Positions 23,510 to 42,226 of a DNA stretch of 48,302 bases are shown here, piece by piece. The stretch is from Oscillospiraceae bacterium. Lineage in GTDB: Bacteria; Bacillota; Clostridia; Oscillospirales; Oscillospiraceae. The notes beneath the pieces are model-generated. The model was given only the letters and a program-made list of their open reading frames with translations, was not told where the DNA came from and did no database searches. A program made the position numbers and the translations under genes. Each line of letters begins with the position of its first letter. Positions within the stretch are counted from its first letter, which is position 1. The stretch covers positions 1-48,302 of the forward strand of contig JAIKVS010000181.1 in NCBI GenBank assembly GCA_024685535.1, read 5' to 3'.

Positions 23510-24733
23510 TCATACAGCGTTCAATGCCCGCTTGCCGCGGTAGAGCGCACAGTCTCCGGGAGAAGCATCCCGGACTATGAGCCCGACTTCAAACGGCTCC
23601 GCATAGGATGAGAGCTGTTCTCTCAGTCTTTGAACATCTATATTGCCTCTTGTCAGCACCAACACATTCAAGCATTCATTACACAGCTCATAGCGGCAGT
23701 CGACCACGCAGGATTCTGCAAAAACGATACTGTCGAGCACAGCAGCGCTCAGTCCTTCCGGCCTGCGTTCTATCCTATCCAGCCGAAGTGTAGCGCTACC
23801 ACAGGGACAAGGTTCCGGCAATATACGGGTGAAATCCCCTGTGCGGTACCTGATGAGAGGCATGGCTTCCATCCCGACAGTGGTTATTACAAGCTCGCCA
23901 AATTCGCCTGCAGGCAGAGGGTTGCCGCGTTCATCAATTATCTCTGCTATAATGTGGTTTTCTCTCAGATGCATTCCTTCATGAGCCTGGCAGCATATCG
24001 CGCCGGCCATACCCATCTCTCTTGAGCCGTAATGGGGAAAAAGCCTGCTGCCGAGCAAATCCTCGCAGGCGGTTATAACGCTCTGAGGGCATGCGTCACC
24101 ACTGACAAGCGCACGACGCAAGCTGCCTCTGCCGCAGTATCGCAGCAGTCCCAGGAGCTGTGCGGGCATGCCCACGAATGTGTCCGGTTTTTCGCGCTCA
24201 ATCAGTTCCGCATATTCACCGTAGCACAGGAAAGGTCCAGTCTTCAGAGGTCGTGCCCCAAGGCGGTTTATTGCCTCGCTGATAAGCTCTCCCAATCCGA
24301 AGGGGCCGGAAAACGGAAAGCATATCAAAGTTGAACTGCCGGGAAATATGAGTTCCCCCAAACCCGCCATATAAAGCTGTATAGTATTCTCGATATCGTC
24401 TTCTGTATAGAAAACGCGCTTTGCAGTCCCGGTAGTGCCTGAGGTAGCATCTGAAAGTACTCGCTGTATCTGTGACTGGGAACAAAGCATCAGTGCACCT
24501 GCATTACCAGCAAGATCCTCTTCTGTTGTAAAAGGGAGAAAAGATATCTCCTCCAGAGATCTCAGCCTCTCCGGCAGATTCCTATAGAATCCTCCGCGTT
24601 CATTCTCGCGTGCCAAAAGGCGATTCAGCTTTTTAAGCTGGATCGCCTTGATCGTTTCTCTGCCGATCCCTGCGATAAGTCCCTCCTGCCTGGCCATCAG
24701 ATCATCCAGACGGGAAACGGGAACGGCATTCAC
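23510..24733 (-). CDS. AMP-dependent CoA ligase (phenylacetate-CoA ligase-like, DVU_1553-type)
   Basis: ANL-superfamily enzyme expected to activate a carboxylic acid to acyl-CoA using ATP. The 407 residues show the P-loop SDATSGTTGTAKRV (about 97-110), YGSREMGMAG (A5) and YRTGDFTR (A7). A small Cys cluster, PCPCGSATLRLDRIE, precedes the C-terminal domain. I place the start at GTG 24733, overlapping the previous stop by 4 nt with GGAAAGGGG upstream. It is the last gene of the aldehyde oxidoreductase operon, so the acid made by that enzyme is an attractive substrate, but this is inference. The DVU_1553 family name is from memory. Confidence 0.82.
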   Translation of the reverse strand: MNAVPVSRLDDLMARQEGLIAGIGRETIKAIQLKKLNRLLARENERGGFYRNLPERLRSLEEISFLPFTTEEDLAGNAGALMLCSQSQIQRVLSDATSGTTGTAKRVFYTEDDIENTIQLYMAGLGELIFPGSSTLICFPFSGPFGLGELISEAINRLGARPLKTGPFLCYGEYAELIEREKPDTFVGMPAQLLGLLRYCGRGSLRRALVSGDACPQSVITACEDLLGSRLFPHYGSREMGMAGAICCQAHEGMHLRENHIIAEIIDERGNPLPAGEFGELVITTVGMEAMPLIRYRTGDFTRILPEPCPCGSATLRLDRIERRPEGLSAAVLDSIVFAESCVVDCRYELCNECLNVLVLTRGNIDVQRLREQLSSYAEPFEVGLIVRDASPGDCALYRGKRALNAV

Positions 24734-25155
24734 AGCAGTCCCCTTTCCTGGAGAATCTCCATACATTTTTCAAATGTGGCTGCGATCACCTGCGGGCAGT
24801 ATTCCACTCGCTTGGCAGGATTGCCCTTTGTTATGTCCCTGCATTCAATGCCGCCGTAGTCTGCGGTCATTTCCTCCTCGAACCATTTGGTGAATTCACC
24901 CAACGCCGGCTTATGCTGCGGATCATCATAGCCTGTATCCTCACCCTTTCCGGTAAAGTATGAGATAAGGCAGGCTCCACCGGTCATGCATCCGCAGCAG
25001 TTTTGTGAAAAGCCCACACCGCCGTTCAGTCCTCCCATAGCCTTAACGAAACCGGGATTCTCTTCCCCAATCGCATCCAGCATGAGTATTGCCAATATCT
25101 GGCCGCAGAAATAGCCGTAACGGCTAAGTTCCATTATCCTGTCAAAAAGGTCCAT
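24730..25155 (-). CDS. C-GCAxxG-C-C family protein
   Basis: A 141-residue protein of the C_GCAxxG_C_C family, small redox or metal-binding proteins found in anaerobes. Conserved cysteines are visible at Cys17, in NCCGCMTGGAC (53-62), in IECRD (about 105) and in VEYCPQ (about 120). I recall this subtype being named after DVU_1555. Its function is unknown; the Cys arrangement suggests an iron-sulfur cluster or disulfide chemistry. It lies 4 nt after the methyltransferase gene and overlaps the CoA ligase by 4 nt. Confidence 0.85.
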   Translation of the reverse strand: MDLFDRIMELSRYGYFCGQILAILMLDAIGEENPGFVKAMGGLNGGVGFSQNCCGCMTGGACLISYFTGKGEDTGYDDPQHKPALGEFTKWFEEEMTADYGGIECRDITKGNPAKRVEYCPQVIAATFEKCMEILQERGLL

Positions 25156-25159
25156 CTCA

Positions 25160-25672
25160 TCAGTCCTTTCTTCCTATCAAAACAAAATAACGGCTTTTCC
25201 CTTTCGGGATATCGCAGCACGGAGATTCATCCCTCCAGAGAGCTTCAAGATAATATTCCAGCCACAGTTCTGTCATATCCTCAGAACAGACGATATCAAA
25301 TCCGGCATCCCGCAGCATTTTTTCAGGTTCGGAAAAGAACACGTCTGAAAGCAACAGCTTTCCTCCTCTACGAAGCAAACGGCACGCTTCCCGCAGCGCT
25401 CCGGGCTGGTCGAATGACGCGAAAAAAGAGCACTGACTCAAAACCGCGTCGAAGCATCGATCCGGGAATGATGTTCTGAGCATATCTCCCTGTTCGACAT
25501 CCGGTGAACGCGGCTCAAGATCTATTCCGCTTGCAGCGATCCCCATCGATCTCATGAGTAAAACCGCTTCTCCGTCTCCGGCACCCATATCAAGCACCGC
25601 ATCTCCTTCGCGCAGTCCCGCAAGCTCAAGCAAGTGCAGAGTATGCTCTTTACCTCCGGGATGGCTTCTCAT
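25160..25672 (-). CDS. SAM-dependent methyltransferase (DVU_1556-type)
   Basis: A 170-residue class I methyltransferase. The SAM-binding motif I is AVLDMGAGDGEAVLL (about 25-39), followed by the acidic end of strand 2 (GIDLEPRS) and CFDAVLSQCSFFASFD, then GGKLLLSDVF. The target is unknown. Three Cys, including CC in DESPCCDIPKG, may relate to its partners. It overlaps the upstream small redox protein by 4 nt (ATGA) and is 4 nt from the C-GCAxxG-C-C gene, so it belongs to the same transcript. Confidence 0.85.
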   Translation of the reverse strand: MRSHPGGKEHTLHLLELAGLREGDAVLDMGAGDGEAVLLMRSMGIAASGIDLEPRSPDVEQGDMLRTSFPDRCFDAVLSQCSFFASFDQPGALREACRLLRRGGKLLLSDVFFSEPEKMLRDAGFDIVCSEDMTELWLEYYLEALWRDESPCCDIPKGKSRYFVLIGRKD

Positions 25673-25890
25673 TTATCCTCCAGTGCCCTCTCCACGGACG
25701 CCACCTTGCCCAGCGCCAGTTCCTCAGGCACATATACGAATCCGCACGCGGGACATACGGGAAGTTCCACCGGAAAGCCGTTATCCAGATACATGAACTT
25801 GGCTTTTCCCTTTATTAGAGGGACATTACATTTAAAGCATCTGAGTTTCCCCTGCGGGTCGATCGTATAGTAATTCTTCTCAATAGCCAT
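25669..25890 (-). CDS. Small CxxC-CxxC redox/zinc protein (DVU_1557-type)
   Basis: A 73-residue protein with two CxxC pairs, RCFKCNVPL and PVCPACGFVYVPEELA, forming a rubredoxin- or zinc-ribbon-like site. It probably acts as an electron carrier or metal-bound adaptor for the neighbouring redox proteins. The start is ATG 25890, three bases after the stop of the dicluster gene, with GGGAGGG upstream. Its stop overlaps the methyltransferase start by 4 nt. Confidence 0.82.
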   Translation of the reverse strand: MAIEKNYYTIDPQGKLRCFKCNVPLIKGKAKFMYLDNGFPVELPVCPACGFVYVPEELALGKVASVERALEDK

Positions 25891-25892
25891 AA

Positions 25893-28181
25893 TCAGCCCT
25901 CCCGTTTCACTACTTTCATCCGATGGCTCCATGCGCGGTGAATTACATAACCACCGTCCGCCATGCTGAACTTCACCCAGAAGGTTGCGTTTCCAACACG
26001 GCGGCGGGCAACCAGCAGTCCGTCTTCATCCTCTATGGCCTCTCCGCATGTGCGGAATTCATCCATCACGGAGATCACATCCTCGACGAGGATCATTCGG
26101 TCATCCATCATGGTCCTGGCTTCATCGGTGAAAACGAGCGGATAATCCAGTTTGTTCTCCATAGGCTCCTCCAGCCATATCTCCTGAAGCAATTCGTTTT
26201 TCAGGCTCAGTCTGTTTTTCCGTTTTTCACTAATATCCGGCGGACTGCCGGCGTCGGTTCCATAGCACAGTTCCAGAATATGCCTCGATTCCCTGCCCTG
26301 ACGGGCAAAGCGGTCTCTGCAGGCCATGCAGTAAGAGATATAAGGTGCATCGCTGCGCTCGAGACATTTTTCCGTCATTTCAGACGCCACTTCCCTGTTG
26401 GCATAGGCGGTGAGCCCGCCGTAACCACAGCAGGGCGAGCGGTCGCCCGAATAGAGCGTATCCACGAGTTCACAGCCGAGTTTTCGGGCAAGCGTTCGTA
26501 TTGCCTGCTGTGTTTTCTCATTTCCGCGTGCTCCGCATGCATCGTGCAGCGCAGCCGGCCGCTCAAGTGCATGCGCGCCTTCCGGCAGCCCCAGCTCCAG
26601 CAGGATATCCCATATTCCGCGCACTTCATGTTCACCAAAGGAACTAAGCTCACGCGCACAGCTGGGACATGCAGCGATTATAACGGGATCGCCAAGGCGG
26701 GCAAGCTCATTATCCAGCAGCTCATGCATCTGCTCCGCCATCTGCGTTCTTCCGGCCCAGCCTGCAATGGAGCCGCAGCATCCCAGTATAAGTGCCACAC
26801 CGCCTTCCATCCTGCTGCAAAGGTCGCTGTACGCGGCCTTCACAGTTTCGGGAGCTATGGCAGCTGCCTGACAGCCCGGGAAGAACACATATCTGCACTG
26901 TTCATACCCCGGCTGTGGCCTTGACAGGAAGGCCTCTCCATTTGAAAAGAGCATATCCATAAGTGCAAATTCATGTGGTGCAAGCGGCATCTTATCCGTT
27001 GATACCATATTACGTCGAGCCATAAGACAGACCCTCGCCATATCGAACCCATTTGGACACACCGCAGTGCACTGCCCGCACAGCGAGCATGCGTTCATGG
27101 GTTTGTTCAGCTGATGGTCACCCATGATTATCTGGGTATTGTTATATATCTCCCTGGCAAGAAGGCCAGGATGCTTTTTATAATGCTTCAGATAAGCGCA
27201 GCTTTTAAGACATTCCTCACAGTGACATGAGATACACCTTCCGGCTTCCTCTGCTGCCTGTTCCCTGCTGTATCCGGCCTCAGGACAGGGAACGCGTTTA
27301 AGGACTTCCGCCTCGCTCAGATCGGTATAGAGTCTGCTGTCAACAGGGCCTTCCTGCCCGCGGGTATTGCGGGGATCCAATCCCTGAGCCAGTCTGTCCA
27401 CAGTGAGCGCAGCTTTTTTTGCGCCGAAAGCAGAATCCAGAACCCCGTTGGTCTTTCCGCTAACCAGTTCCTGCGCTTCGCAGAACATCAGTCCAACATC
27501 GGTTTTTGCGCAGGGAAACAGTTCATACCTTACATCATCCGACGCACACAGAACGTCAAACGATGCTTTTTTATCTTCATAGAACGCCGCATCGATGCAG
27601 CAGTTGAATTCAAATTGAATGTCCTTCCCCCGCAGACGTTTCAGTTCTGCCGCGAAAGCTTCATCATCAAGGAAAGGCGCGCATTCGCGCAGATAACTCT
27701 CATGGGAATCCTGAGTACAGAAAACGGTTACAGGATATGCTTTTTTCTCAAGTTCTCCTGCCAGCATCAGTGCAAACAGGCCTGAACCGAGCACGGCAGT
27801 ACTTTTGCGCTTCTTACTGCGGAATACGCCGCCGAGCCTGCTCTGCTCTCCGAAGCGTGCAACAGCACGCTCGACCTCACTGATCAGCACTCCTTCGCCT
27901 ACCTCATTCAACCTGCACTTTGTCTCGCAGGGGGCTTCGCAGCCTGCTGAAAGTATCAGAGGGAAAGGCGCAATCTTTTCATAAAGCTGGAGGGCTTTTT
28001 TGAAGTTACCGGAGGCCGCGGCCTCGAGAAATCCCCGCACATCAAGCTTGAGCGGGCAAGCAGCGCAGCAGAAGGGCGGCTCCTCGTATACACAGCGAGC
28101 CACCATGCTCTCCATTTCCTCTTTTGATATCTTGTTAACCTTATATACGTGTGTGGAGCCTCGCTCCTGTATCTGACTCAT
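25893..28181 (-). CDS. Dicluster / CCG-domain redox protein with shortened flavin domain
   Basis: A 762-residue protein. It carries an N-terminal GltD-type dicluster domain (Cys30 to Cys89, CCAACP and CEAPCETKC). A Rossmann-like stretch follows (127-240, VLGSGLFALMLAGEL), then a Cys-rich linker (297-329), a 4Fe-4S motif (CSLCGQCTAVCP, 365-376) and two CCG domains (431-510 and 546-640). Those domains have FFPGCQ, CCG 468-470, CPSC, DACG, CCGYGG and CMAC, as in HdrD/GlcF. A novel tail ends the protein (685-760). The flavin/NAD(P) region is only about 115 residues, far shorter than in GltD. It probably passes electrons to or from the aldehyde oxidoreductase, which is inference. GGAGGG precedes the ATG. 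Confidence 0.85.
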   Translation of the reverse strand: MSQIQERGSTHVYKVNKISKEEMESMVARCVYEEPPFCCAACPLKLDVRGFLEAAASGNFKKALQLYEKIAPFPLILSAGCEAPCETKCRLNEVGEGVLISEVERAVARFGEQSRLGGVFRSKKRKSTAVLGSGLFALMLAGELEKKAYPVTVFCTQDSHESYLRECAPFLDDEAFAAELKRLRGKDIQFEFNCCIDAAFYEDKKASFDVLCASDDVRYELFPCAKTDVGLMFCEAQELVSGKTNGVLDSAFGAKKAALTVDRLAQGLDPRNTRGQEGPVDSRLYTDLSEAEVLKRVPCPEAGYSREQAAEEAGRCISCHCEECLKSCAYLKHYKKHPGLLAREIYNNTQIIMGDHQLNKPMNACSLCGQCTAVCPNGFDMARVCLMARRNMVSTDKMPLAPHEFALMDMLFSNGEAFLSRPQPGYEQCRYVFFPGCQAAAIAPETVKAAYSDLCSRMEGGVALILGCCGSIAGWAGRTQMAEQMHELLDNELARLGDPVIIAACPSCARELSSFGEHEVRGIWDILLELGLPEGAHALERPAALHDACGARGNEKTQQAIRTLARKLGCELVDTLYSGDRSPCCGYGGLTAYANREVASEMTEKCLERSDAPYISYCMACRDRFARQGRESRHILELCYGTDAGSPPDISEKRKNRLSLKNELLQEIWLEEPMENKLDYPLVFTDEARTMMDDRMILVEDVISVMDEFRTCGEAIEDEDGLLVARRRVGNATFWVKFSMADGGYVIHRAWSHRMKVVKREG

Positions 28182-28214
28182 AACTGTCCCTCCGGGTCAA
28201 TACGGAATGGAAAC

Positions 28215-28279: not shown

Positions 28280-31039
28280 TCAGTTCTCCAGTGCCTTCAG
28301 AGCGGCAAGCACTTTGTCCGGGCGTGCCGGTATGCGAGTGATGCGCGCTCCGGTGGCATTATAGATGGCGTTCAGGATGGCGGGGTGAGGAGCATCCAGC
28401 GGTGCCTCGCCGCAGCCGGCAGCTCCATAGGGGCCGTTCGGGCGGTAGGTCTCGACATAATGCAACTCGATGTCATCGGGAGCGTCATTCGGGTAAGGTA
28501 TACCACACTTGAGCAGGCTGGTCTCCTTCGACAAATCGTCAAAGTCCTCGCTCAGCGCAAGACCGATGCCCTGTACGAGTCCGCCATAGAAGTTGCCGTC
28601 GACAAGGAGTTTGTTCATGATTGTGCCGACATCAGCAACGCAGGTGAACTTCTCGACCTTGACCTTACCGGTCTGGGTATCGACGCATACTTCGGGGAGG
28701 AAGATGGTGTACATATAGGTGGCGAAGGGTTCGCCCTGGGCGGTGTCCTGATCCACAGGATGATCCGCGCAGTAGGTGGTTACCCAGTTGCCCTCGACCT
28801 TCAGCTTCTTGCCGTCGGCTACCATCTCGTCATAGGTGCGGTAAGTGCCGTCGTCCTTCTTCATCTCAGCGAGGAGTGCTTCTGCTGCGAGACGGCAGGC
28901 ATTACCGGACATGACCTGAGAACGTGAGCCGCCTGCAGGGCCAGAGTTCGGAGTGTACTTGGTGTCATTCATGACGAGGCGGATCTGCTCAGGCTTGATG
29001 CCTGCCTGACGCAGAGTCTCATGAGCGGAGACGAGCGCACCCATATCAGCACCCTGGCCGTGATCCTCCCAGGAAACATATATGGTAACCGTTCCGTCCT
29101 TGTTCAGCTCAGCAAACGCGGAAGACGCGTCGACGCCGTCGAGTCCGCAGCCGTATACGCCGAGGGATACACCTATGCCGTATTTATAACGTCCGTCAGA
29201 TGCGGCGTTCTTCTCGGCAACTCTCTTCTTTCCTGCTTCATAGAGCGGGCGGGCCTTGTCGAAGAGGGCTTCTTCGCAATACACATCAGGAGCATAGCCT
29301 GTCGGGATAGTGGTGTTTTCTGATGCCTTGTAGCAGTTCATGGCGCGCATCTCGAAAGGATCGATGCCCATCTTGGCCGCCAGGCAGTCGATGGCAATAT
29401 CAGAGCCCATGAAGGACTGAGGTGAGCCGTATGCGCGGAAAGCAGAGCCCCATGCATGGTTTGTGAACACGGTCTGGCTCTTGTTGCGGATGGAGGGAAT
29501 CCCATAGCCGGCGCCGGTGAACTGGCTCAGACGCATGGTGAGCAGGTCGCCAAACTCGGAGTATGGGCCGTGGTCGACATAGTTATCGCCCCAGAGAGCG
29601 AGGAGCTTGCCATCCTTATCCGCAGCGAGCTTGATGTGCATAAATGCAGGTGAACGCTTGCCGGTGTAGGTGATGTTCTGGAACTGGTTGAAGTTCAAGG
29701 ATACGGGCTTGCCTATGATCTTGGCGGCAGCCCCGATAAGAGCCTCGTTCGTCGGTGAGAACTTGTAGCCGAAGGTACCGCCGGCATGGTTCTGAACGAT
29801 GCGGAGCTTCTCCATCGGTACACCGATACCTGCAGCGATCATCGGCATATGCAGATGGATACCGATGGACTTGGAGTGCACGGTTACCATGCCGTCCTCA
29901 TCGATATAGCCATAGCCGTTGTCCGGCTCGATATGCAGGTGGGGCTGACGTGAGCAGTAGCTCTCGATCTCGACCTGCTGTGAATCGGGTATGCTGTTCC
30001 AGTCGAAGTCAGGTCCCTTAATGCAGTTTGTCTCGTAGAAGACGTTCGGGGTACCAGGGTGGATCTCAATGGCATCGGGTGCCATTGCATCGAGCGCACT
30101 CATGTATGCCGGGAGCTCTTCGATATCTACCTTGACCGCATCGGCAGCGGCGCGGGCGTGCTCTTCTGTGTCTGCAGCAACGATGGCAATAGCATCGCCA
30201 AACTGGAAGATCTTGTCGGAGCAGAGCACCGGACGCTCAAATCCGTCGGTTTTGTTGTGCTTAGGAAGCATGACCAGGCCATTGATCTGGTTGGTGCCGC
30301 CGGCAGCGAGGATATCCTTGTAAGTAATGACCTTCACGACGCCGGGCATCTTTTCTGCTTCGGAGGTATCGATGCTCTTGATGTTGGCATGGGAGACCTT
30401 GGCCTGGGTGAGGGCAAGGCGCAGGCAACCGGGCATCTTCAGTGCGTCGTCGGCACCGAAGTCCCATGTGCCGGTAACTTTCTGTGCAGCGGAGGGACGG
30501 ATGTACTTCGTGCCCTTGATGCTGTCGCCGGTGGGTTTGAATACGAGGTCTTCCTTGCTCATCTCACCGCGGAGAACCGCTGCTGCGTCCATGACTGCAT
30601 CGACGAGGGGCTTGTAGCCGGTGCAGCGGCAGAGGTTACGCTGCTTGTTGAACCAGTCGCGAACTTCTTCTCTTGTGGGACTGGGATTATTCTCGAGAAG
30701 AACCTTTGCGCTGATTATGAAGCCCGGAGTGCAGAAACCGCACTGTGCGCATCCGTGGGCCATCCATGCAACCTGCAGGGGATGCATGTCGCTAAGGGTG
30801 CCGACACCTTCGATGGTGGTGATCTCGGCGCCATCGGGGACCTTGCTCATCTTTACAATGCAGGACTTGGTGACCTTGCCGTTCATGATGACGTTGCAGG
30901 CTCCGCAGTGGCCTTCGCCGCAGCCGATCTTACAGCCGGTCAGCAGCAGATGCTCACGCAGGACCTTTGCAAGAGTCTCGTCCTGTTCCAGGACCAGGTT
31001 CCGTGTGACGCCGTTGATGACAAGTGTTTTTCTTATCAT
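28280..31039 (-). CDS. mop: Molybdenum-dependent aldehyde oxidoreductase (Mop type)
   Basis: Xanthine oxidase-family enzyme that oxidises aldehydes to carboxylic acids with a molybdopterin-dinucleotide cofactor and two [2Fe-2S] clusters, without FAD. The 919 residues resemble Desulfovibrio gigas Mop (907) throughout. Plant-ferredoxin-type cluster ligands are Cys40, 45, 48 and 60; second-cluster ligands are Cys100, 103, 137 and 139, the same numbers as in D. gigas. The molybdopterin domains fill residues 165-910, with FGYKFSPTNEA, WGSAFRAYGSPQS and the catalytic Glu878 in AGCGEAPL. AGGAGG precedes the ATG. It is transcribed with the 84-residue protein upstream from a strong promoter and probably reads through a stem-loop into the dicluster gene. 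Confidence 0.95.
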   Translation of the reverse strand: MIRKTLVINGVTRNLVLEQDETLAKVLREHLLLTGCKIGCGEGHCGACNVIMNGKVTKSCIVKMSKVPDGAEITTIEGVGTLSDMHPLQVAWMAHGCAQCGFCTPGFIISAKVLLENNPSPTREEVRDWFNKQRNLCRCTGYKPLVDAVMDAAAVLRGEMSKEDLVFKPTGDSIKGTKYIRPSAAQKVTGTWDFGADDALKMPGCLRLALTQAKVSHANIKSIDTSEAEKMPGVVKVITYKDILAAGGTNQINGLVMLPKHNKTDGFERPVLCSDKIFQFGDAIAIVAADTEEHARAAADAVKVDIEELPAYMSALDAMAPDAIEIHPGTPNVFYETNCIKGPDFDWNSIPDSQQVEIESYCSRQPHLHIEPDNGYGYIDEDGMVTVHSKSIGIHLHMPMIAAGIGVPMEKLRIVQNHAGGTFGYKFSPTNEALIGAAAKIIGKPVSLNFNQFQNITYTGKRSPAFMHIKLAADKDGKLLALWGDNYVDHGPYSEFGDLLTMRLSQFTGAGYGIPSIRNKSQTVFTNHAWGSAFRAYGSPQSFMGSDIAIDCLAAKMGIDPFEMRAMNCYKASENTTIPTGYAPDVYCEEALFDKARPLYEAGKKRVAEKNAASDGRYKYGIGVSLGVYGCGLDGVDASSAFAELNKDGTVTIYVSWEDHGQGADMGALVSAHETLRQAGIKPEQIRLVMNDTKYTPNSGPAGGSRSQVMSGNACRLAAEALLAEMKKDDGTYRTYDEMVADGKKLKVEGNWVTTYCADHPVDQDTAQGEPFATYMYTIFLPEVCVDTQTGKVKVEKFTCVADVGTIMNKLLVDGNFYGGLVQGIGLALSEDFDDLSKETSLLKCGIPYPNDAPDDIELHYVETYRPNGPYGAAGCGEAPLDAPHPAILNAIYNATGARITRIPARPDKVLAALKALEN

Positions 31040-31104: not shown

Positions 31105-31359
31105 TCAGTGGCTGTGGCCGCCGCAGCGGTCGTGGTCGGGGCCTTTCCCGGAAACATCCTTCACGCGTTCTATTCCGCGAGGAGTATAGAAGACCAGCTG
31201 AGAAAGACTGCCGTCCAGATTCTCTCCGCTCAAGCGGAGAAAGTTTGCATTCTCGAAGTAGTCGATGGGAAGATCACGCCGGAAGACCTCACCTGTATTC
31301 TCATCACGGACTTCAATCGTTACCTCGTGCGCGATTATTTCAAAAAGCTCCTCGCCCAT
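31105..31359 (-). CDS. Small protein with His/Cys-rich C-terminal tail, unknown
   Basis: An 84-residue protein I do not recognise. The body is acidic, with VTIEVRDENTGEVFRRDLPI suggesting a small beta structure. The end reads DHDRCGGHSH, a probable metal-binding tail (four His/Cys in the last nine residues). I use ATG 31359, eight bases after AGGGGG; a GTG at 31368 overlaps that site. It is the first gene of the aldehyde oxidoreductase operon, 65 nt upstream of mop, suggesting a dedicated chaperone or subunit role. Confidence 0.7.
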   Translation of the reverse strand: MGEELFEIIAHEVTIEVRDENTGEVFRRDLPIDYFENANFLRLSGENLDGSLSQLVFYTPRGIERVKDVSGKGPDHDRCGGHSH

Positions 31360-31399
31360 CGGTACCACCCCCTATATCTATACGTTATCATGCATTTAT

Positions 31400-32478: not shown

Positions 32479-32545
32479 ACCGCCTCTCTGCAACTATAAT
32501 AACATGAAGCACCACCGGATGCACGAAAAAAGCAGCCGCATGCGA

Positions 32546-32574
32546 TTTACAAACAAAAAACAATCGTTTATACT
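32546..32574 (+). promoter_or_regulatory. Promoter of the NTP transferase-HD-XdhC operon
   Basis: TTTACA (32546-32551), a 17-nt spacer and TATACT (32569-32574), 5/6 matches in both boxes, 40 nt upstream of the ATG. Confidence 0.75.
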
Positions 32575-32614
32575 GATAAAAAATGATAACGGTCCGAAGC
32601 GAGGAGAATGGATC

Positions 32615-34595: not shown

Positions 34596-35627
34596 ATGCC
34601 AAATATATACGCAGAAATACTTTGCCGGCTGGCTGAAAATCAAGCCGTGTCACTTGAGACTGTGATAAGGAATGAATCCGGCAATATCAAAAACGGCCTC
34701 ATACGCCGGCTCACCGGAGTAACTCCTGTGACAGACGTTAAAGGCCGCAGCTTTGCGCGCGTGACTGCTGAAGAAATCGAAGAAGGACTCTGCATCCGCG
34801 AGCCCGTGCTGCCTCAGGAGAGGCTCATAGTCCTCGGTGCAGGCCACATAGCCCTGCCGGTTTGCTCATTCGGAGCTGCCTGCGGCTTCTCAGTATGCGT
34901 TGTGGACGACAGGCCTGACTTTGCAAACCGCAGCCGCTTTCCTGATGCAGCCGAGGTGATATGCGACAGCTTTGAAAACGGAATTACGAAGCTTGAAGTC
35001 ACGCCCTTTGACTATATTGTGGTGATCACAAGAGGCCACCGGCATGATGCCGACTGCCTGCGCGTCCTTCTACCGGGTACAATGCCCGCCTACCTTGGTA
35101 TGATAGGGTCAAGAAGACGCACGACGGGGCTGCTTCAGATGCTCAGAGATGAGGGCTTCGATCCTGACCGCATTTCAAAAATATGCACACCAATCGGGCT
35201 AAACATAGGCGCCGTGACTCCAGGAGAGATCGCCATATCCATCCTCTCAGAGGTCATCGCCTACAGGCGGCTGCCCGAACACGGTGATCCCGACAGATAC
35301 TGCAACGACTCCGACGTGGAACTTTCCACACTGCAATACCTGGCTGAAAACCACGACCCCAAAGCCATTGTGACAGTTATCGAGACCAAAGGCTCCACTC
35401 CGCGAGGCACAGGTGCAAAGATGGCCGTAAGCCCGCTTGGCAAAGTGACGGGCAGCATAGGCGGCGGATGCAGCGAAGCGGCTGTCATACAGGACGCAAT
35501 ACGCATCATCGGTACAGGCTGTTATAAAACAATGGATATTGACCTCACAGGCGAGGTCGCCGAGTCGGACGGCATGGTATGCGGCGGCACTATGAAGGTG
35601 CTTGTTGAAGATGCCTGTGAAGAATAA
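34596..35627 (+). CDS. XdhC/CoxI family molybdenum hydroxylase maturation factor
   Basis: XdhC proteins bind Moco, promote its sulfuration and deliver it to xanthine-oxidase-family enzymes. The 343 residues are arranged unusually. Residues 1-60 resemble a worn XdhC_CoxI domain, 75-225 are the Rossmann domain (LIVLGAGHIALPVCSFGAAC, DYIVVITRGHRHD, YLGMIGSRRR), and the complete XdhC_CoxI domain lies at the C-terminus (AIVTVIETKGSTPRGTGAKM, GSIGGGCSEAAVI, about 265-300). It ends the plus-strand cofactor operon and presumably serves the aldehyde oxidoreductase on the other strand. Confidence 0.9.
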   Translation: MPNIYAEILCRLAENQAVSLETVIRNESGNIKNGLIRRLTGVTPVTDVKGRSFARVTAEEIEEGLCIREPVLPQERLIVLGAGHIALPVCSFGAACGFSVCVVDDRPDFANRSRFPDAAEVICDSFENGITKLEVTPFDYIVVITRGHRHDADCLRVLLPGTMPAYLGMIGSRRRTTGLLQMLRDEGFDPDRISKICTPIGLNIGAVTPGEIAISILSEVIAYRRLPEHGDPDRYCNDSDVELSTLQYLAENHDPKAIVTVIETKGSTPRGTGAKMAVSPLGKVTGSIGGGCSEAAVIQDAIRIIGTGCYKTMDIDLTGEVAESDGMVCGGTMKVLVEDACEE

Positions 35628-35919: not shown

Positions 35920-36963
35920 TCAATCATATAGTAATAAAATGTTTGCCGGAGCTATCCCGAGTTCCCCGGGAAACTGAGCCGGCTTTTTGTCCTTGGTCAG
36001 CCGCCACCATACAGGCGGGCTGTCCGGTTTTTGTCCTTCATAACGGAACTGGATTATTGTCTCGAATGGTTCCTCCATCTCCTCAGCAAAATGCACGGCA
36101 AAACGGTTATACTGTGTATTCGGGCTGAAGTAGTGAGCCCTCAGGCCAACAGCGCAGAGACCTTCCTCAACACGCTGCTTCGTCTCAAGTTCAATACCCC
36201 ATTCCGGTACTTCCACAGTATGCTCATCTATACGCCGTGCCTTTGCGATGTTCTTACATCCGGTGATAACTGCAGCCTGAACGCTGCCCGGATCGGCAAA
36301 CAGAGCCTTGGTGGATTTCAGCGCAAGAATACGGCCTTTATCCATAACAGCTATATCCCGGCTCATATTGTATGCCTCGTTCCTGTCGTGTGTCACCATG
36401 AGCACCTCACGGCCAAACCGTTCCAGCAGATCGCGCAGCTCCACCTTGAGAGAATCGCGCAAATGTCCATCGAGGGCAGAGAAGGGTTCGTCCAGCAGAA
36501 GAAGCCGAGGTTCGCTCACGAGAATGCGCGCCAGCGCCACTCTCTGCTGCTGCCCGCCGGAAAGCTGGGCAGGTTTTCTCTCCTCCAGACCTTCAAGCTG
36601 AAGCATACTGATCATATCACACAGGCGCTGCTGCCTTGATGTTCTGTTCCGTTCACGCCTGAGACCGCAGAGTATATTCTGCCGCACGGTCATATTCGGA
36701 AAAAGCGCATAGTTCTGGAAAAGATATCCTACGCGGCGCTGCTGCGGAGGCAGATTTATTCCGTTTTCAGAATCGAAAAGCACTCTCCCATCAAGTTCAA
36801 TTATCCCTTCATCAGGCTTTTCTATGCCTGCTATGCACTTGAGAGTCATGCTCTTTCCGCAGCCTGAGGCTCCGAGCAGGGATGTTACCCCGTTTTCAGC
36901 ATTAAAGTCCACATCCAAAGTAAAGCTGCCGAGCTGTTTACGAATGTCGACATGCAGGCTCAT
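35920..36963 (-). CDS. modC: Molybdate ABC transporter ATP-binding protein
   Basis: A 347-residue ATPase that powers molybdate uptake. Visible are Walker A GASGCGKSM (about 31-39), the Q-loop QNYALFPNMTV, signature LSGGQQQRVALARIL, Walker B LLLLDEPFSALD and the H-loop VTHDRNEAY. The C-terminal 110 residues form a divergent TOBE-like region. The start overlaps the modB stop by 4 nt. Next to modB, modA and a molbindin, molybdate or tungstate is the expected substrate. Confidence 0.92.
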   Translation of the reverse strand: MSLHVDIRKQLGSFTLDVDFNAENGVTSLLGASGCGKSMTLKCIAGIEKPDEGIIELDGRVLFDSENGINLPPQQRRVGYLFQNYALFPNMTVRQNILCGLRRERNRTSRQQRLCDMISMLQLEGLEERKPAQLSGGQQQRVALARILVSEPRLLLLDEPFSALDGHLRDSLKVELRDLLERFGREVLMVTHDRNEAYNMSRDIAVMDKGRILALKSTKALFADPGSVQAAVITGCKNIAKARRIDEHTVEVPEWGIELETKQRVEEGLCAVGLRAHYFSPNTQYNRFAVHFAEEMEEPFETIIQFRYEGQKPDSPPVWWRLTKDKKPAQFPGELGIAPANILLLYD

Positions 36964-37634
36964 GACTTCACCGCCTTTTTCTGCCGCGCTTCCAGCATAT
37001 TCACGCTCAGCAGCACCACCGTGCTGATGGCAAGATTCACCATTACCCAGAGAAATGCGCCTTTTTCATCGTTGGTGCGCCACAGCTGATAAACCGTAGT
37101 GGATATCGTTGCGGTCTTTCCGGGCGTATAACCGATGAGCATGCTCGTGGCGCCGTATTCTCCCAGCGCACGGGCAAAGGCGAGAACGGTCCCGGCAAGT
37201 ATTCCCTGTCTGCAGGCAGGCATGCGGATCCGCCAGAATATGTAGGTGTTGCTGAGGCCAAGCGTCTGCCCAGAATAGGCAAGCGTCTTGTCAAAGCTTT
37301 CGAAGGCGCCGCGGGCTGTGCGGTACATCAGCGGAAAAGCCACTACCGCCGCCGCCAGCACCCCTCCGTACCAGGTCATAACAAACTTCACGCCAACTTT
37401 TGCGAGCAATATGCCCAGCGGCCGCCTCACTCCGAAAACGAGAAGCAGAAAATAGCCGCAGACAGTCGGCGGCAGCACCATCGGAAGCGTGAGGAACACA
37501 TCAAGAACACCTTTTATCACGCGCGGCAGTCTTGCCGCATAATAAGCGAAAAAGATGCCTGTGAAAAAAACAAGCACGCAGCTTATGGCAGCAATACGCA
37601 GAGAGTTTACAAGCGGAAACCAGTCAAAACTCAT
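36960..37634 (-). CDS. modB: Molybdate ABC transporter permease
   Basis: A 224-residue inner-membrane permease with about five helices and the binding-protein-dependent transport motif ALGEYGATSMLIGYTPGKT (about 155-175) that docks ModC. The N-terminus MSFDWFPLVNSLRIA is typical of ModB. I start at ATG 37634 (GGAG 8 nt upstream) rather than TTG 37640. Confidence 0.93.
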   Translation of the reverse strand: MSFDWFPLVNSLRIAAISCVLVFFTGIFFAYYAARLPRVIKGVLDVFLTLPMVLPPTVCGYFLLLVFGVRRPLGILLAKVGVKFVMTWYGGVLAAAVVAFPLMYRTARGAFESFDKTLAYSGQTLGLSNTYIFWRIRMPACRQGILAGTVLAFARALGEYGATSMLIGYTPGKTATISTTVYQLWRTNDEKGAFLWVMVNLAISTVVLLSVNMLEARQKKAVKS

Positions 37635-37701
37635 AATCAATACTCCGAATTACGGCGGGCGGCGTTGATAAAGCGCCGCCCGTTATGGTCAGTTTTTCAA
37701 A

Positions 37702-38601
37702 TCAGGATGCCGGTGAAAAGCCGACGCTCTCAAACACCGCAGTGGCCTCCGGTCCCTGCAGATAATCCAGAAACGCCTGTGCAGCCTCCGGGTTTTTGCT
37801 CACATTCAGGACTGCAGCCGGATAGATGACCTGTCCGCACATATCCTTTGTTGCAGTGTCGACGATGGTAAGTCCTGCAGAAAAAGCGTCTGTCGCATAG
37901 ACAACTCCGCAGTCAACGCTGGCATGTTCCACCTGAGTGGTAACATCCTTGACATTGCTGCCATAGGTGATGATCTTCTTTGCAACAAGATCATCCTCGC
38001 TCAGCTCATAGTAAGCAAGGATCTTCTGCGTATACTGTCCCACAGGTACATCGCTGTTGCCCATGGCGAAGAGTATGTCTCCTGCCTTTAAATGCTCCAC
38101 CAGACTGTCAAAGGACTCAATGCCCTTCGGGTTGCCTTCCGGAACGACCAGCGCAACCTTGTTCTCCAGCAGGTTCACACGGCTTCCCTGCAGCACATAG
38201 TCGAGTCCGTCAGGATTCTTTTCACTGTCGCAGGATGCATCGAGCGCGTTCATCTGCTTGGGAGCCGCGGATATGAACAGATCGCAGTCCGCATTCTCCT
38301 GAATCTGGGTTTTAAGAGTGCCGGATGAATCGAAGTTATAGGTGATGATCACACCGGGATTTGCCGCCTCATAAAGGGCTTTGATCTCTGTCAGCGTTTC
38401 GGTCATGGATGCCGCTGCAAATACAATGATCTCAACTTCCTTTACAGGTGCGGGCTCTTCAGCTGGAGCAGGTGCTTCGGCGGGCTGTTCCGCCGGTTTT
38501 TCCGCCTCTGGCTGTGATGCGGCGGGAGCGGCCGTCCGGCCGCAGGCTGCAAGCGCAAACAGCATCACGAGCGCAAGCAGCAGTGCGAGGTTCTTTTTCA
38601 T
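37702..38601 (-). CDS. modA: Molybdate-binding lipoprotein
   Basis: A 299-residue substrate-binding protein. It has a signal peptide with lipobox LAAC (Cys about 20), a Pro/Ala/Glu-rich tether (about 22-58), then the ModA fold starting EIIVFAAASMTETLTEI with the oxyanion-binding Ser. LFISAAPKQMNAL, LVVPEGNPKG and DCGVVYATDA follow. It captures molybdate or tungstate outside the membrane. The ATG at 38601 has GGAG upstream. First gene of modABC-molbindin. Confidence 0.94.
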   Translation of the reverse strand: MKKNLALLLALVMLFALAACGRTAAPAASQPEAEKPAEQPAEAPAPAEEPAPVKEVEIIVFAAASMTETLTEIKALYEAANPGVIITYNFDSSGTLKTQIQENADCDLFISAAPKQMNALDASCDSEKNPDGLDYVLQGSRVNLLENKVALVVPEGNPKGIESFDSLVEHLKAGDILFAMGNSDVPVGQYTQKILAYYELSEDDLVAKKIITYGSNVKDVTTQVEHASVDCGVVYATDAFSAGLTIVDTATKDMCGQVIYPAAVLNVSKNPEAAQAFLDYLQGPEATAVFESVGFSPAS

Positions 38602-38639
38602 TCTTTCTGTCTCCTTTCCCATATTTCAGGGAAGATATT

Positions 38640-38663: not shown

Positions 38664-38703
38664 CATACACAGATGAAGAATATTTAATTGCAGGCCGCTG
38701 TTG

Positions 38704-39732
38704 TCAGGTACCTTTTCCGAAACCGCAGTTTGGGAAGTGGCAGACTTTGCAGTTAAGGCAAAGGCCGCCATGACCAAGTGCGGCAAGATGCTCCTTAGTT
38801 ATGGGAGTATCAGTGACGAGATACGGCAGCAACAGATCGAATATCGTACGCTTAGCGTACATCACACAGCCCGGAAGTCCACACACAGGCCTTCCGTCCG
38901 GCATATATGAAACGAGGAACATAGCCCCCGGTAGCACCGGTGAGCCGTAGGAAACAATGTCAGCTCCGGAGTTCTTTATTGCAAGCGGCGTCTTGTCATC
39001 GGGATCAACGCTCATACCGCCACTGCACAACACCATCTCGCAGCCTTTGTCAAGCATGTCGAGTATGGCAGTGGTGATCTTCTCATGGTCATCGTTGAGG
39101 GTTACATGCTCCGTAATGACGCAGCCACCGAATTCACGGAGCTTCTGCTCGATTACCGGTGTGAATGTATCCTGAATGCGACCGTAGAAGACCTCGTTAC
39201 CGGTGGTCACCACGCCGACTTTTTTGCTTTTTAACGGCACAAGCCTGAGAAGCGGTTCGCTGCCTGCCACATCTTTTGCCCGCTCCATCTTTTCTTTTTC
39301 AATAATCAGAGGGATAACGCGTGTGCCGCAAAGTTTTTCGCCCTCTTTAACGACGAAGCCTGACGCCCTGGTGGCGATCATCATCTCAGGGAGAGAATTC
39401 ACTGCGCGAAGCCGGTCTATATCGATCAGGAGCAGTCCGTCAGTATCGGCTATAAGCTCTATCTTTCCCTCTTTGGGCTCGGTAGCATGCATATGCTCAT
39501 TTATACATATATCACGCAGGATCTCCGCCGCCTCGTCCTCATGGAGCATGTTTTCATTGTTTTCCCAGATATATATGTTGTCCTTCCCGACGCTCAGCAG
39601 CACAGGCACATCCTCCAGCCGGATAATGTGCCCCTTCCGGAAGACCGGTCCTTTTTTCTCATCCCTTATTATCTGGGTGATATCATGGCAGAGCACATGT
39701 CCGACGGCATCCTCAGTCTTCATAAGCTTCAT
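38704..39732 (-). CDS. MoeA-like molybdopterin-binding protein with Cys-rich tail
   Basis: A 342-residue protein. The first 150 residues are unusual. The MoCF-type molybdopterin-binding domain occupies about 155-310 (GVVTTGNEVFYGRIQD, LCSGGMSVDPDDKTP, GLPGCVMYAKRTIFDLLLP). The last 20 residues contain CLNCKVCHFPNCGFG, four cysteines suited to zinc or an iron-sulfur cluster. It lacks the full MoeA domain set, so it may carry or hand on cofactor rather than insert molybdate. The ATG at 39732 fits the MKLMKTEDAVGHVL start seen in the family. Its promoter is very strong. modA follows after 102 bp. Confidence 0.83.
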   Translation of the reverse strand: MKLMKTEDAVGHVLCHDITQIIRDEKKGPVFRKGHIIRLEDVPVLLSVGKDNIYIWENNENMLHEDEAAEILRDICINEHMHATEPKEGKIELIADTDGLLLIDIDRLRAVNSLPEMMIATRASGFVVKEGEKLCGTRVIPLIIEKEKMERAKDVAGSEPLLRLVPLKSKKVGVVTTGNEVFYGRIQDTFTPVIEQKLREFGGCVITEHVTLNDDHEKITTAILDMLDKGCEMVLCSGGMSVDPDDKTPLAIKNSGADIVSYGSPVLPGAMFLVSYMPDGRPVCGLPGCVMYAKRTIFDLLLPYLVTDTPITKEHLAALGHGGLCLNCKVCHFPNCGFGKGT

Positions 39733-39797
39733 GGCGGCATTTCCTTTCCGCTTCATTCTTTTTCGAATATTTTTTAAAAGCAATTCGCTATTTGCAT

Positions 39798-39839: not shown

Positions 39840-39879
39840 AAAAGTAATAAAGAATGCTGAAAACGCTTAAAAAGTGAAC

Positions 39880-41163
39880 TTATTCCATAACTGTGAGGTA
39901 TTTTGCGCAGAAAGGTTTTATCCTCCCTCTGTCGTAGACATGCAGGCTGCAGCGGTGCAGCCGCTCTAAATTCAGGTTCATCGCATCCTGAAATGCCATT
40001 GCTGAAAGGGTCAGGCTCTCATGGCGCAGGCGATACAGAAACGTATCGAAATCCATCCCATCCGAAAAAAGCGCTTCAGGTACCGGTTCCTCCGGTGCGC
40101 GGCGCCAGTGCCTCGCCACATATTCACGGTTATCGCGCTCACAACCACGCACAGGTGAAGAATATGTGACAGAACTCAAGGGTCTGAGACCACCATCCGG
40201 TCTTAAAAGGAAGTTTGCGTGGAAACCGCAGAGCGGATGGTCGCATCGCGAAGGCATGAAGCTTGTGACGGGTATACCAGACTGTTCGCTTATATCCGCC
40301 ATCAAATCATCCAGAGTATAACGTTCACTGTCCGCCGGTATTCCGGGATAGCGTCCGAAATAGGATACAGGCTGGAAGTGTATTCCCCTTACCGCAGGCG
40401 AGAATGCGCAGGCAAGACTAATGATGTTTCCCAGATCACCGTCGTTCACGCCTTTAACCACCGTGGGCACCAGCGTCACTCCCAGACGCAGTTCTCCGCA
40501 TATTCTTATGGCTTCCTTCTTTATCTCAAGCAACGGAACTCCACGGAGCGACTCAAATATATCGTCCCTGGTCCCGTCAAACTGCAGAAACACTATATCG
40601 AGTCCCGCATCCGCCATCCTTTTCGCATACTGAGGCTCTCTGGCGATGCGGATGCCATTTGTATTAAGCTGCACATAGCTGCAGCCTGCTTCTTTTGCAA
40701 AACGCACGAGTTCATCAAGATCGTCCCGCATGGTGGGCTCTCCGCCCGAAAGCTGCAGCAGCGGATCTCCGCACTGTCTGACGATGTCCCGTATTGAAGC
40801 TTTCAAATCTTCAAGAGAAGGTTCATCTGTCCGCTCCCCTCCTCGGGCGAAGCAGTAGCGGCAGTGAAGATCACATCGTGAGGTAACTTCCAGCAACACG
40901 CAGCAGCTGCCTATCTCATGCTCGCTGCAGAGACCGCAGTTTCCCGGACAACTCAGCCCCTTATCATCCGGCAATTGCGGATTACCAAGGAGCCATGTTT
41001 CAAACCCGACCTTCCCGTGCCAGACCGGTACCTCATAAATCCCGTGTTCAGCACAGCTCTTTTCCAGGAGGATACATCCGTCCTTCTCCTGCACCAGCAA
41101 GGCTGATATGTTTTTCAGGCAAACCGGACAGACTGACCGGGTTTTTCGGATGATATCACCCAT
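39880..41163 (-). CDS. Radical SAM protein (TrsS-like)
   Basis: A 427-residue radical SAM enzyme. The cluster motif is Cys97-x3-Cys101-x2-Cys104 (CDLHCRYC), with GGEPTMRDD and NTNG following in the TIM barrel. The N-terminus adds cysteine pairs (CPVC 12-15, Cys37, CPGNCGLC 72-79 and CC 87-88) that may bind zinc or an auxiliary cluster. I recall related proteins named TrsS, some with selenocysteine; here all ligand positions are Cys. The product is unknown. It starts one base after the GTPase gene stop, so the two are coupled, and it lies next to the MoeA-like gene. Confidence 0.85.
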   Translation of the reverse strand: MGDIIRKTRSVCPVCLKNISALLVQEKDGCILLEKSCAEHGIYEVPVWHGKVGFETWLLGNPQLPDDKGLSCPGNCGLCSEHEIGSCCVLLEVTSRCDLHCRYCFARGGERTDEPSLEDLKASIRDIVRQCGDPLLQLSGGEPTMRDDLDELVRFAKEAGCSYVQLNTNGIRIAREPQYAKRMADAGLDIVFLQFDGTRDDIFESLRGVPLLEIKKEAIRICGELRLGVTLVPTVVKGVNDGDLGNIISLACAFSPAVRGIHFQPVSYFGRYPGIPADSERYTLDDLMADISEQSGIPVTSFMPSRCDHPLCGFHANFLLRPDGGLRPLSSVTYSSPVRGCERDNREYVARHWRRAPEEPVPEALFSDGMDFDTFLYRLRHESLTLSAMAFQDAMNLNLERLHRCSLHVYDRGRIKPFCAKYLTVME

Positions 41164-41164
41164 C

Positions 41165-42226
41165 TTATTCTCCCAGACCGAAGCGGTCTTTCCTGAAAAC
41201 TGTAATCTCCAGCTGATACTTTTCTGAAACGCTCTTCACAGCTTCCCATACCATGGCGTCAAAAGTTTCATCATGGCAGACTGCACTGGCATTCAGAATC
41301 ACAGCCAGATCCGTGCAAGGCTTCTCAAAGGGGTGCGCAAGTTCAACCGGACGGTCTGTTCCGATAATATCAGCTTTGCCGAAATCCCCCTCCTGACTCC
41401 ATGCCAGAAGCTTGAAATGGGGAAGTTCATGGCCGGAGCTCCGCAACGCACAGCTTATCTTCCATGCAAGATCAGTGAGATACGTGCTGCCGTTGAAATC
41501 ATTGCAGCATACCAGTGCACGGTACTGGAGAAAATATTCGCTGAGACTGCCCATCGCATTCTGAAGATCATCCGCTTCATAGTCAATGTCAGGACGACGG
41601 AGCGATGCCTTACCGTTTTTCAGTGCAAGGCAAAGAGTATCGAGGTTTTCTCCGGTAAGAGCACTGATGGTCAGAACCTTGGCTTCCGGGTACTGAAGTC
41701 TGAGCCATGAAGATTCCTCCTCGCGCTCATCATCATCGATCAGGTCGATCTTATTCAGGACTATAAGCTCCGCCTCTCTAAGCTGCGCATCCAGGATAAA
41801 TCCCATCTCTCCGGCCTCACCCCGGCGAAGGTTCATGACGTTATGCGGCTCCGTCAGCACAGTAAAGGGAGCGAGTTCGAACTGTCCGGGATGATCCTCC
41901 GTCAAACCATGATATACATGTTCCAATGCACCTACTCCGAAGCCAGGAATATCTGAAATAACCAGTTCACAGCCCTCATCATAGAAGGCATTCAAATTCT
42001 GCGCAAGCACATCATGGCAGAAGCAGATGCACTCCCCGGTGATCTGCCGGGAATTGCAGCCGCTAAGCTCTGCAAGCCTGTGATCCGCCAGCATCACGCC
42101 TTCTCCGAGATCATTGGAGATCATGGCCGCCCTGCCGAATCTTTCGGAATAAAACTTCGTCAAAGCCATCATTGCTGTTGTTTTCCCTGAACCGAGAAAC
42201 CCGCTGAAGACCGCAAATTTTTTCAT
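41165..42226 (-). CDS. G3E family (CobW/HypB/UreG-like) GTPase
   Basis: A 353-residue P-loop GTPase of the metallochaperone group. It has Walker A GFLGSGKTT (9-17), the metal-binding segment GECICFC (Cys66, 68 and 70; the usual CxCC is CxCxC here), Walker B-like ISDIPGFG, and NKIDL (G4). Such proteins deliver metal or drive maturation of metalloenzymes. I place the start at ATG 42226, after AGAGGAAAG. First gene of a two-gene operon with the radical SAM protein, suggesting joint assembly of a metallocofactor. Confidence 0.85.
   Translation of the reverse strand: MKKFAVFSGFLGSGKTTAMMALTKFYSERFGRAAMISNDLGEGVMLADHRLAELSGCNSRQITGECICFCHDVLAQNLNAFYDEGCELVISDIPGFGVGALEHVYHGLTEDHPGQFELAPFTVLTEPHNVMNLRRGEAGEMGFILDAQLREAELIVLNKIDLIDDDEREEESSWLRLQYPEAKVLTISALTGENLDTLCLALKNGKASLRRPDIDYEADDLQNAMGSLSEYFLQYRALVCCNDFNGSTYLTDLAWKISCALRSSGHELPHFKLLAWSQEGDFGKADIIGTDRPVELAHPFEKPCTDLAVILNASAVCHDETFDAMVWEAVKSVSEKYQLEITVFRKDRFGLGE

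Follow-up and report, generated by a model that had tools for sequence, protein, structure and literature searches.

The gene set DVU_1551-1559 and the radical S-adenosylmethionine (SAM) protein TrsS are covered in NCBIfam by the models NF045645, NF045646 and NF045663-NF045669, and the names of the DVU_1551-1559 models state no function or pathway. Members of the same families surround a Mop-type molybdenum aldehyde oxidoreductase (AOR) in the stretch of DNA studied here, referred to as the window, which comprises the 48,302 nucleotides of contig JAIKVS010000181.1 (C246) in a metagenome-assembled genome of an Oscillospiraceae bacterium (GCA_024685535.1; 1.98 Mb, 81% complete). In the island at positions 23510-42226, the genes for the AOR, CCG protein, CxxC protein, methyltransferase, C-GCAxxG protein and ligase follow the order of falling DVU numbers in the model names. 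An initial annotation, made from the letters alone, had pointed to a related Desulfovibrio set without a known pathway, and this is indeed the set already named in the database.

The window AOR is similar over its full length to the solved AORs 1sij/1vlb of Desulfovibrio gigas and 1dgj, which we take to be that of D. desulfuricans (1129 and 1155 bits for the comparisons with the 1sij/1vlb group and 1dgj). These AORs were studied as isolated enzymes, with flavodoxin as the proposed acceptor, and helper genes are not discussed in the relevant passages of that work (PMC3877041). In Clostridium ljungdahlii, the genes CLJU_RS11830 to RS11815 encode an AOR, an FAD/CCG fusion, a four-Cys protein and a C_GCAxxG_C_C protein, as in the window; the authors suggest a membrane-bound electron carrier, and CCG pairs are suggested as carrier oxidoreductases for such a protein, while the passages concerned do not mention a radical SAM enzyme, methyltransferase, ligase, co-occurrence or copy number (PMC5640608). 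The gene set itself is thus not new, being named in NCBIfam and described in part, as far as those passages go, in C. ljungdahlii (PMC5640608). A further relative of one of its members, the lipid synthase GDGT-MAS, joins two saturated lipid ends by way of a bond between substrate and sulfur at its C-terminal cluster, and an earlier annotation of this protein as a pterin methylase was judged incorrect by the authors of its structure, according to the parts of their paper that deal with it (PMC9433317).

Our data support that most of the extra genes of the island are tied to this AOR. As a possible explanation, which we hold tentatively, we propose a three-part system. Set A would consist of the AOR and its dedicated electron-transfer partners, the rubredoxin-like CxxC protein and the Fe-S/CCG protein, one of each per AOR copy. 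A maturation group (nucleotidyltransferase, HD and histidine phosphatase domains, XdhC, MoeA-like protein and molybdate transporter) would make and insert an ordinary molybdopterin cytosine dinucleotide (MCD). Set B (TrsS, methyltransferase, C-GCAxxG protein and ligase) would be a trans-acting pathway to a shared small organic factor that carries the electrons of the AOR through the CCG protein.

Association of the gene set with the oxidoreductase

The island is formed by three gene groups with intergenic gaps of less than 170 bases inside each, which would correspond to three operons. The first group, on the minus strand, encodes a TylF-like methyltransferase, a small protein (orf87), the AOR, the CCG protein, the CxxC protein, the set B methyltransferase, the C-GCAxxG protein and the ligase; the second, on the plus strand, a transferase-ModE fusion, a phosphatase-HD fusion and XdhC; and the third, on the minus strand, a GTPase, TrsS, a MoeA-like protein, ModA, ModB and ModC. 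Window proteins were assigned with NCBIfam and Pfam models against their curated cut-offs. The AOR (28280..31039, minus strand) reached 1511 bits with NF045668 (cut-off 1100) and stayed below the cut-off of the selenium-dependent xanthine dehydrogenase model TIGR03311 (411 bits, cut-off 830). It probably acts in aldehyde oxidation and is the sole match of PF01315 in its genome, and in the best segment it shares up to 97% identity with AORs of uncultured Clostridia, which in many cases come from the ruminant gut.

The partners of set A are encoded on the same strand as the AOR. The Fe-S/CCG electron-transfer protein of DVU_1558 type (25893..28181; NF045663 784 bits, cut-off 530) has a Fer4_20 domain, a flavoprotein-like part, a 4Fe-4S dicluster, a CCG pair and a C-terminal domain, its CCG domain falling in two stretches, with motif matches that start at 429, 437 and 549. 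The rubredoxin-like CxxC protein of DVU_1557 type (25669..25932; NF045645 91 bits, cut-off 60) probably has its true start at 25890. Also on the minus strand, set B is represented by a class I SAM methyltransferase of DVU_1556 type (25160..25672; PF08241), a short form in the usual operon position that scores below the cut-off of NF045667 (112 bits, cut-off 155), in which Cys81 is kept in 85/85 aligned proteins, that of the window included; by a C-GCAxxG-C-C protein of DVU_1555 type with a predicted iron-centre fold (24730..25155; NF045669 150 bits, cut-off 103); and by a PaaK-like AMP-forming ligase of DVU_1553 type (23510..24766; NF045666 327 bits, cut-off 300), whose residues S109, G110, T111, G113, K116, Y246, G247, E250, D311 and K412 are each found in at least 90% of 77 proteins.

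Gene content, co-occurrence, copy number and the conservation of TrsS metal-site residues were computed. Two draws of genomes, sharing G000 and at least five further genomes, were used: 216 genomes at class level, searched with six NCBIfam models, and 179 at phylum level, searched for AOR and TrsS. The six models do not include methyltransferase, XdhC and transferase, which were counted at loci only. In the class draw the AOR was over its cut-off in 11 genomes and TrsS in exactly the same 11 (Fisher p 1e-18, a merely indicative value, as the genomes are related). The CCG protein, CxxC protein and ligase were over cut-off in these 11 and in G088, a genome whose AOR is truncated by a contig end (793 bits), and the C-GCAxxG protein in 11, namely G088 and all the AOR genomes except G210. 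The AOR model matched 44/216 class genomes at E 0.001, two of them marginally, and no CCG protein over cut-off was found in the 32 with a sub-cut-off AOR match, G088 apart. Ligase-like proteins are widespread, in such a way that 133/216 class genomes had them at E 1e-50, yet 12 exceeded the NF045666 cut-off. The phylum draw gave 14 genomes with the AOR and 14 with TrsS, 13 of them in common. Contig ends cut the AOR in G613, where TrsS is present and no ligase is over cut-off, and in G611, where AOR and TrsS are both below cut-off; with such AORs counted, TrsS was over cut-off in 24 of the 27 different AOR genomes of both draws. In G210, the over-cut-off TrsS belongs to a cluster without AOR, and a second TrsS, truncated by a contig end, neighbours a different ligase over cut-off. 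For TrsS, the tie to the oxidoreductase that the initial annotation had proposed to check was borne out in 11/11 class and 13/14 phylum genomes, with G698, G088 and G611 departing from it.

The synteny sample comprised the best 80 of 143 loci encoding a relative and is biased to close relatives. Downstream counts refer to 70 of the 93 AOR copies in the fetched loci, those with at least 9 kb downstream; the 23 left out, with less than 9 kb, include that of G159 (L102). On the same strand downstream of the AOR, the CxxC protein was encoded in 70/70 and the CCG protein in 67/70 by profile (the other three by tblastn), and the methyltransferase in 64, the ligase in 64, the C-GCAxxG protein in 62 and TrsS in 45. 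This association is more than chance. The neighbourhoods thus agree with AOR-linked partners, as had been annotated, but not with a general role of the G3E GTPase, present in 12 loci.

The number of copies separates the two sets. More than one over-cut-off AOR was detected in five class genomes, three in G079 and two each in G096, G117, G137 and G172, and in 5/5 of them the copy numbers of the CCG and CxxC proteins equal that of the AOR. G079 and G172 have a single TrsS, a single C-GCAxxG protein and a single ligase over cut-off, and their extra AOR copies (L083, L084 and L086) are followed only by CCG and CxxC genes; these three are the only ones among the 70 AOR copies in which all of set B is missing downstream. 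As TrsS, C-GCAxxG protein and ligase are single in these multi-AOR genomes, they are probably shared among AOR copies, and we read the CCG and CxxC proteins as per-enzyme electron-transfer partners. TrsS and AOR are on different contigs in G155 and G172 and in different operons in the window, and set B likely acts in trans.

Some loci showed other arrangements of these genes. The AOR reading frame of G155 is interrupted by one in-frame TAG (L095). A sub-cut-off AOR of G629 (L122) lies near ligase, methyltransferase and phosphatase genes and a C-GCAxxG fragment, and a UbiE-like methyltransferase with a fused NTPase_1 domain is encoded at 10714-11904. On plasmid p2 of Cetobacterium somerae (L134), a relative of the CCG protein adjoins annotated class I methyltransferase, C-GCAxxG and rhodanese-like genes, and no AOR is among the annotated genes of that stretch.

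TrsS and the candidate product of set B

TrsS of the window (39880..41163, minus strand), the remaining member of set B, belongs to a GTPase-linked clade and passes its model NF045646 marginally (491.2 bits, cut-off 490). The next-best NCBIfam model is that of a lipid synthase, Tes (NF045702), and TrsS, with a score of 289 bits below the cut-off of 450, is not filed as Tes. Its closest solved relative is GDGT-MAS (7tol, 225 bits), and it is distantly similar to MoaA. A SPASM domain was not detected in window TrsS by Pfam scan, and its open reading frame (ORF) has no in-frame TGA for the selenocysteine present in some TrsS members; in the TrsS of G137, the flagged TGA sits at the end of the protein.

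The metal sites of TrsS were mapped by alignment to 7tol, with chain numbers taken as those of the paper plus 20, and conservation was measured over 69 AOR-linked TrsS. The predicted ligands are C12, C15, C37 and H40 for the rubredoxin site, C72, C76, C79 and H82 for the N-cluster, and C97, C101 and C104 for the SAM cluster, all kept in 69/69 proteins (68 or 69 when the cysteines of the C-cluster are included). C222, C405 and C419, each conserved in 68-69 of the 69 proteins, align with cysteines of GDGT-MAS; we assign them as putative ligands of the C-terminal cluster, the ligands not being named in the pertinent passages of the GDGT-MAS paper (PMC9433317). The alignment did not reach C312. 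M389 aligns with the labile Met439 of GDGT-MAS and is Met in 67/69. Tyr459, conserved in the archaeal homologues, is not kept, being Val409 in the window and V in 33 and E in 32 of the 69; it is dispensable in GDGT-MAS, as reported in the part of the paper dealing with it (PMC9433317). By analogy, TrsS may perform the GDGT-MAS kind of coupling.

The TrsS of the window is paired with a G3E-type GTPase (41165..42226, minus strand; PF02492). Its longer ORF extends to 42310, and the internal ATG at 42226, at which 7/12 GTPases begin, is the better start, in agreement with the end initially given to the island. In the 12 loci with this GTPase, the window included, it adjoins TrsS in 11 and is at a contig end in the twelfth. 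In a TrsS tree of 61 rows picked out of a larger set, window TrsS falls inside a 20-row clade (support 100/100) that contains its own 12-row subclade, with the GTPase adjoining TrsS in 10/12 rows of the latter; 6/8 members of the clade outside this subclade partner a second AOR clade. The window AOR, ligase and CCG protein, in trees built with FastTree and mid-point rooted, group with those of close relatives in the first AOR clade. This mismatch between TrsS and AOR clades suggests that a foreign TrsS probably replaced the operon copy in the lineage of the window, that TrsS seems to have been exchanged between AOR clades, and that it probably does not recognise the AOR polypeptide.

TrsS is also found in other company. 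In L092 (G096) and L101 (G210), an over-cut-off TrsS occurs together with an over-cut-off ligase and a further TrsS-like protein that lacks the N-cluster ligands. L092 adds a C-GCAxxG protein, a sub-cut-off methyltransferase of the DVU_1556 model, a dihydrolipoyl dehydrogenase and the C-terminal domain of the CCG protein on its own, and L101 a protein of the 2-hydroxyglutaryl-CoA dehydratase D-component and a DUF5714 protein. Neither stretch matched the AOR, XdhC, transferase, MoeA-like or Mod profiles, the Pfam scan covering part of their ORFs; both genomes hold an AOR elsewhere. Distant TrsS-like proteins adjoin LGT-domain genes (L109, L112 and L128) or, in L105, an ICMT-type gene; this context agrees with lipid chemistry, and the proteins are possibly bacterial lipid-coupling enzymes.

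All the reactions of set B, what its product is and that the CCG protein uses it are inferred from these data. In this scheme, TrsS would remove hydrogen from an sp3 carbon that is not activated, and coupling of this carbon would then run through a carbon-sulfur intermediate on the C-terminal [4Fe-4S] cluster, in the manner of tetraether lipid synthase. Activation of a carboxylate would fall to the ligase and modification of the molecule to the methyltransferase, and the C-GCAxxG protein would supply or relay electrons. The product would be an electron carrier, perhaps lipophilic, oxidised and reduced at the CCG pair, that takes the electrons of the AOR. A broader version is unlikely as a whole: set B would define a new class of lipophilic redox carrier, made by Tes-type sp3 coupling, carboxylate activation and methylation and dedicated to the CCG protein of Mop-type AORs; a 2-hydroxyacyl-CoA-dehydratase-like system, and perhaps certain enzymes of the dimethyl sulfoxide (DMSO) reductase family, would employ it again with paralogous enzymes, and it would stand in for quinone or methanophenazine in fermenting gut bacteria.

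Several points weigh against the carrier proposal. The NCBIfam models were perhaps curated on this neighbourhood, in which case co-occurrence at their cut-offs may be partly circular. TrsS may be dispensable for the AOR, since four AORs are present in G698 (96% complete, 310 contigs) but neither TrsS nor ligase is over cut-off there, and no TrsS was found at E 1e-70 in G088 and G611, both with AORs cut at a contig end; the AOR copies of G698 (L113-L116) are all on short contigs. The second AOR of G096, G137 and G117 has its own set B, whole or partial, and the linkage of set A is not strict, as the CCG and CxxC genes of G159 are with set B, about 25 kb from its single AOR. Moreover, the locus scan detected no XdhC or transferase near the three extra AOR copies L083, L084 and L086, so that the copy-number split fits AOR maturation equally well and cannot by itself separate maturation from carrier synthesis.

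This shared absence of set B, XdhC and transferase would suit a different reading, in which set B alters the molybdenum cofactor itself, through a changed pterin or dinucleotide. The same reading gains from the distant similarity of TrsS to MoaA and from two sub-cut-off TrsS relatives, L126 (G584) and L127 (G652), that adjoin molybdopterin enzymes of the DMSO-reductase family, a context that would fit pterin chemistry; both have Glu at the position aligned with the labile Met, and the L127 stretch also encodes, nearby, a MoeA-like protein and another that matches the middle part of the CCG protein. We nevertheless regard it as doubtful. The AOR of D. gigas, which represents one of the two solved groups nearest to the window enzyme, contains MCD whose pterin rings are well defined at 1.28 Å, as described in the relevant part of that work (PMC10223205), and by analogy the window AOR would carry MCD as well; a stable pterin change would be unlikely if D. 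gigas carries set B, and D. vulgaris carries the gene set, going by the NCBIfam model names. The metal-site residues of TrsS are those of a lipid-coupling enzyme, the pterin-methylase annotation of whose kind was called incorrect (PMC9433317, in the passages cited above), and TrsS-ligase pairs occur in the two stretches, L092 and L101, in which no molybdenum gene was found. A modified pterin is thus disfavoured. Of the two products offered in the initial annotation, the modified cofactor has been weakened by the same evidence, and the small redox molecule, as an inferred product, fits better.

Set B could instead be a protein maturase that modifies the AOR, CCG or CxxC protein after translation or helps to load a metal or sulfur ligand, a very doubtful reading in our judgement. 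Its likely action in trans, the close co-occurrence and the G3E GTPase beside one TrsS clade would suit such a role, but TrsS was apparently swapped between AOR clades, window TrsS lacks a SPASM domain by Pfam and has a lipid synthase as its next-best model, an AMP-forming ligase has no obvious place in it, and none of the D. gigas AOR structures of PMC3877041 showed an equatorial sulfido ligand, going by the passages on this point. It is distinctly unlikely that set B is catabolic, its ligase and other enzymes acting with the indolepyruvate oxidoreductase encoded next to the island to process the acid made by the AOR, for instance to an acyl-CoA: the ligase is PaaK-like and IorAB lies at 42619-44970, but the three extra AOR copies carry no ligase, TrsS, methyltransferase and C-GCAxxG protein are left unexplained, and IorAB was matched at no other locus, though most loci extend to just 10 kb from the AOR, and in the window IorAB lies farther away than that. 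That the genes merely travel together by horizontal transfer, without joint function, is most improbable; the set accompanies similar AORs in Oscillospiraceae, Blautia, Erysipelotrichaceae and Proteobacteria, which agrees with transfer, but linkage alone does not give a TrsS retained on a separate contig (G155 and G172) or an AOR about 25 kb from the rest (G159).

If the proposal that set B makes an organic factor is true, the factor would be missing from the biochemistry of the isolated enzyme, and Tes-type radical chemistry would be linked to energy metabolism in gut bacteria. The copy-number split points to set B as the genes to delete for finding it, and loss of set B in a strain with several AORs should give one missing metabolite and a shared defect.

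Maturation group and other genes of the island

The second group starts with a molybdopterin nucleotidyltransferase fused to a ModE-type helix-turn-helix (HTH) domain (32504..33538, plus strand; PF12804, HTH_1 over cut-off), with a probable start at 32615, which stays below the cut-offs of NF045665 (202 bits in the N-terminal half, cut-off 315) and TIGR00637 (63 bits, cut-off 98.5); the fusion was found in 56 ORFs, the window included. It is followed by a CobC-like histidine phosphatase fused to an HD domain (33538..34584, plus strand; PF00300 and PF01966), which matches the C-terminal half of NF045665 with 126 bits, also below cut-off. This model (DVU_1551 type, nucleotidyltransferase and HD in one protein) is thus split over two ORFs in the window, and the fusion arrangement of the nucleotidyltransferase, HD and histidine phosphatase domains varies among loci. 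The third gene encodes an XdhC-type maturation factor (34596..35627, plus strand; PF13478 and PF02625; NF045664 270 bits, below the cut-off of 350).

In the third group, the MoeA-like molybdopterin-binding protein (38704..39783, minus strand; PF00994) ends in a CxxCxxCxxxxCxFG tail present in 26/26 MoeA-like proteins of the loci, the window included. The molybdate ABC transporter (35920..38622, minus strand) is formed by ModC (35920-36963), ModB (36960-37640; TIGR02141 197 bits, cut-off 183) and ModA (37702-38622; TIGR01256 126 bits, cut-off 62.5); ModC was named by position, its TIGR02142 score (219 bits) being below the cut-off of 285 and other ABC-ATPase models scoring higher. Nearly all the partners initially listed around the AOR were recovered with curated models or Pfam domains. 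The exception was a molbindin (Mop/TOBE-domain protein), found neither in the 20 ORFs scanned (E 0.01) nor in orf87 (E 0.1); the ModE-type HTH fused to the transferase is present instead.

Besides the phosphatase-HD fusion, two further genes had been omitted from the initial listing. The TylF-like methyltransferase (31522..32493, minus strand; PF05711) is a frequent neighbour of the AOR, with 39 ORFs in the loci, the window included. The conserved 87-amino-acid protein orf87 (31105..31368, minus strand), upstream of the AOR, matched no Pfam or NCBIfam family; it is encoded near 61/93 AOR copies and, over 11 sequences, has 15 invariant columns; a Cys in its tail is invariant, and it was also found in G210 (L099) and G584 (L124). 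Outside the island, the indolepyruvate ferredoxin oxidoreductase genes IorB and IorA (42619-44970) adjoin the GTPase, and an aldehyde dehydrogenase family protein is encoded at 46708-47964 (PF00171, 62 bits). A large protein with flavodiiron-type, flavin reductase and rubredoxin domains (17427-19445) lies beside a DUF362/ferredoxin protein (16261-17430).

Comparison with known systems

In the literature passages and database listings examined, we did not meet the copy-number split, the TrsS exchange, the metal-site match or the other contexts of TrsS. Compared with split-Soret cytochrome c (1h21), the window protein shows 10% identity and has no CXXCH haem motif. Compared with Tes and GDGT-MAS (MJ0619, 7tol), the metal-site residues, the labile Met among them, are aligned and conserved in TrsS, whereas TrsS scores below the Tes cut-off, Tyr459 is replaced and no lipid gene was recognised at the window locus. 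Compared with DVU_1551-1559, the window has a transferase joined to a ModE-type HTH and a phosphatase joined to the HD domain, and its TrsS belongs to another clade, lies in a separate operon and has a G3E GTPase as its partner.

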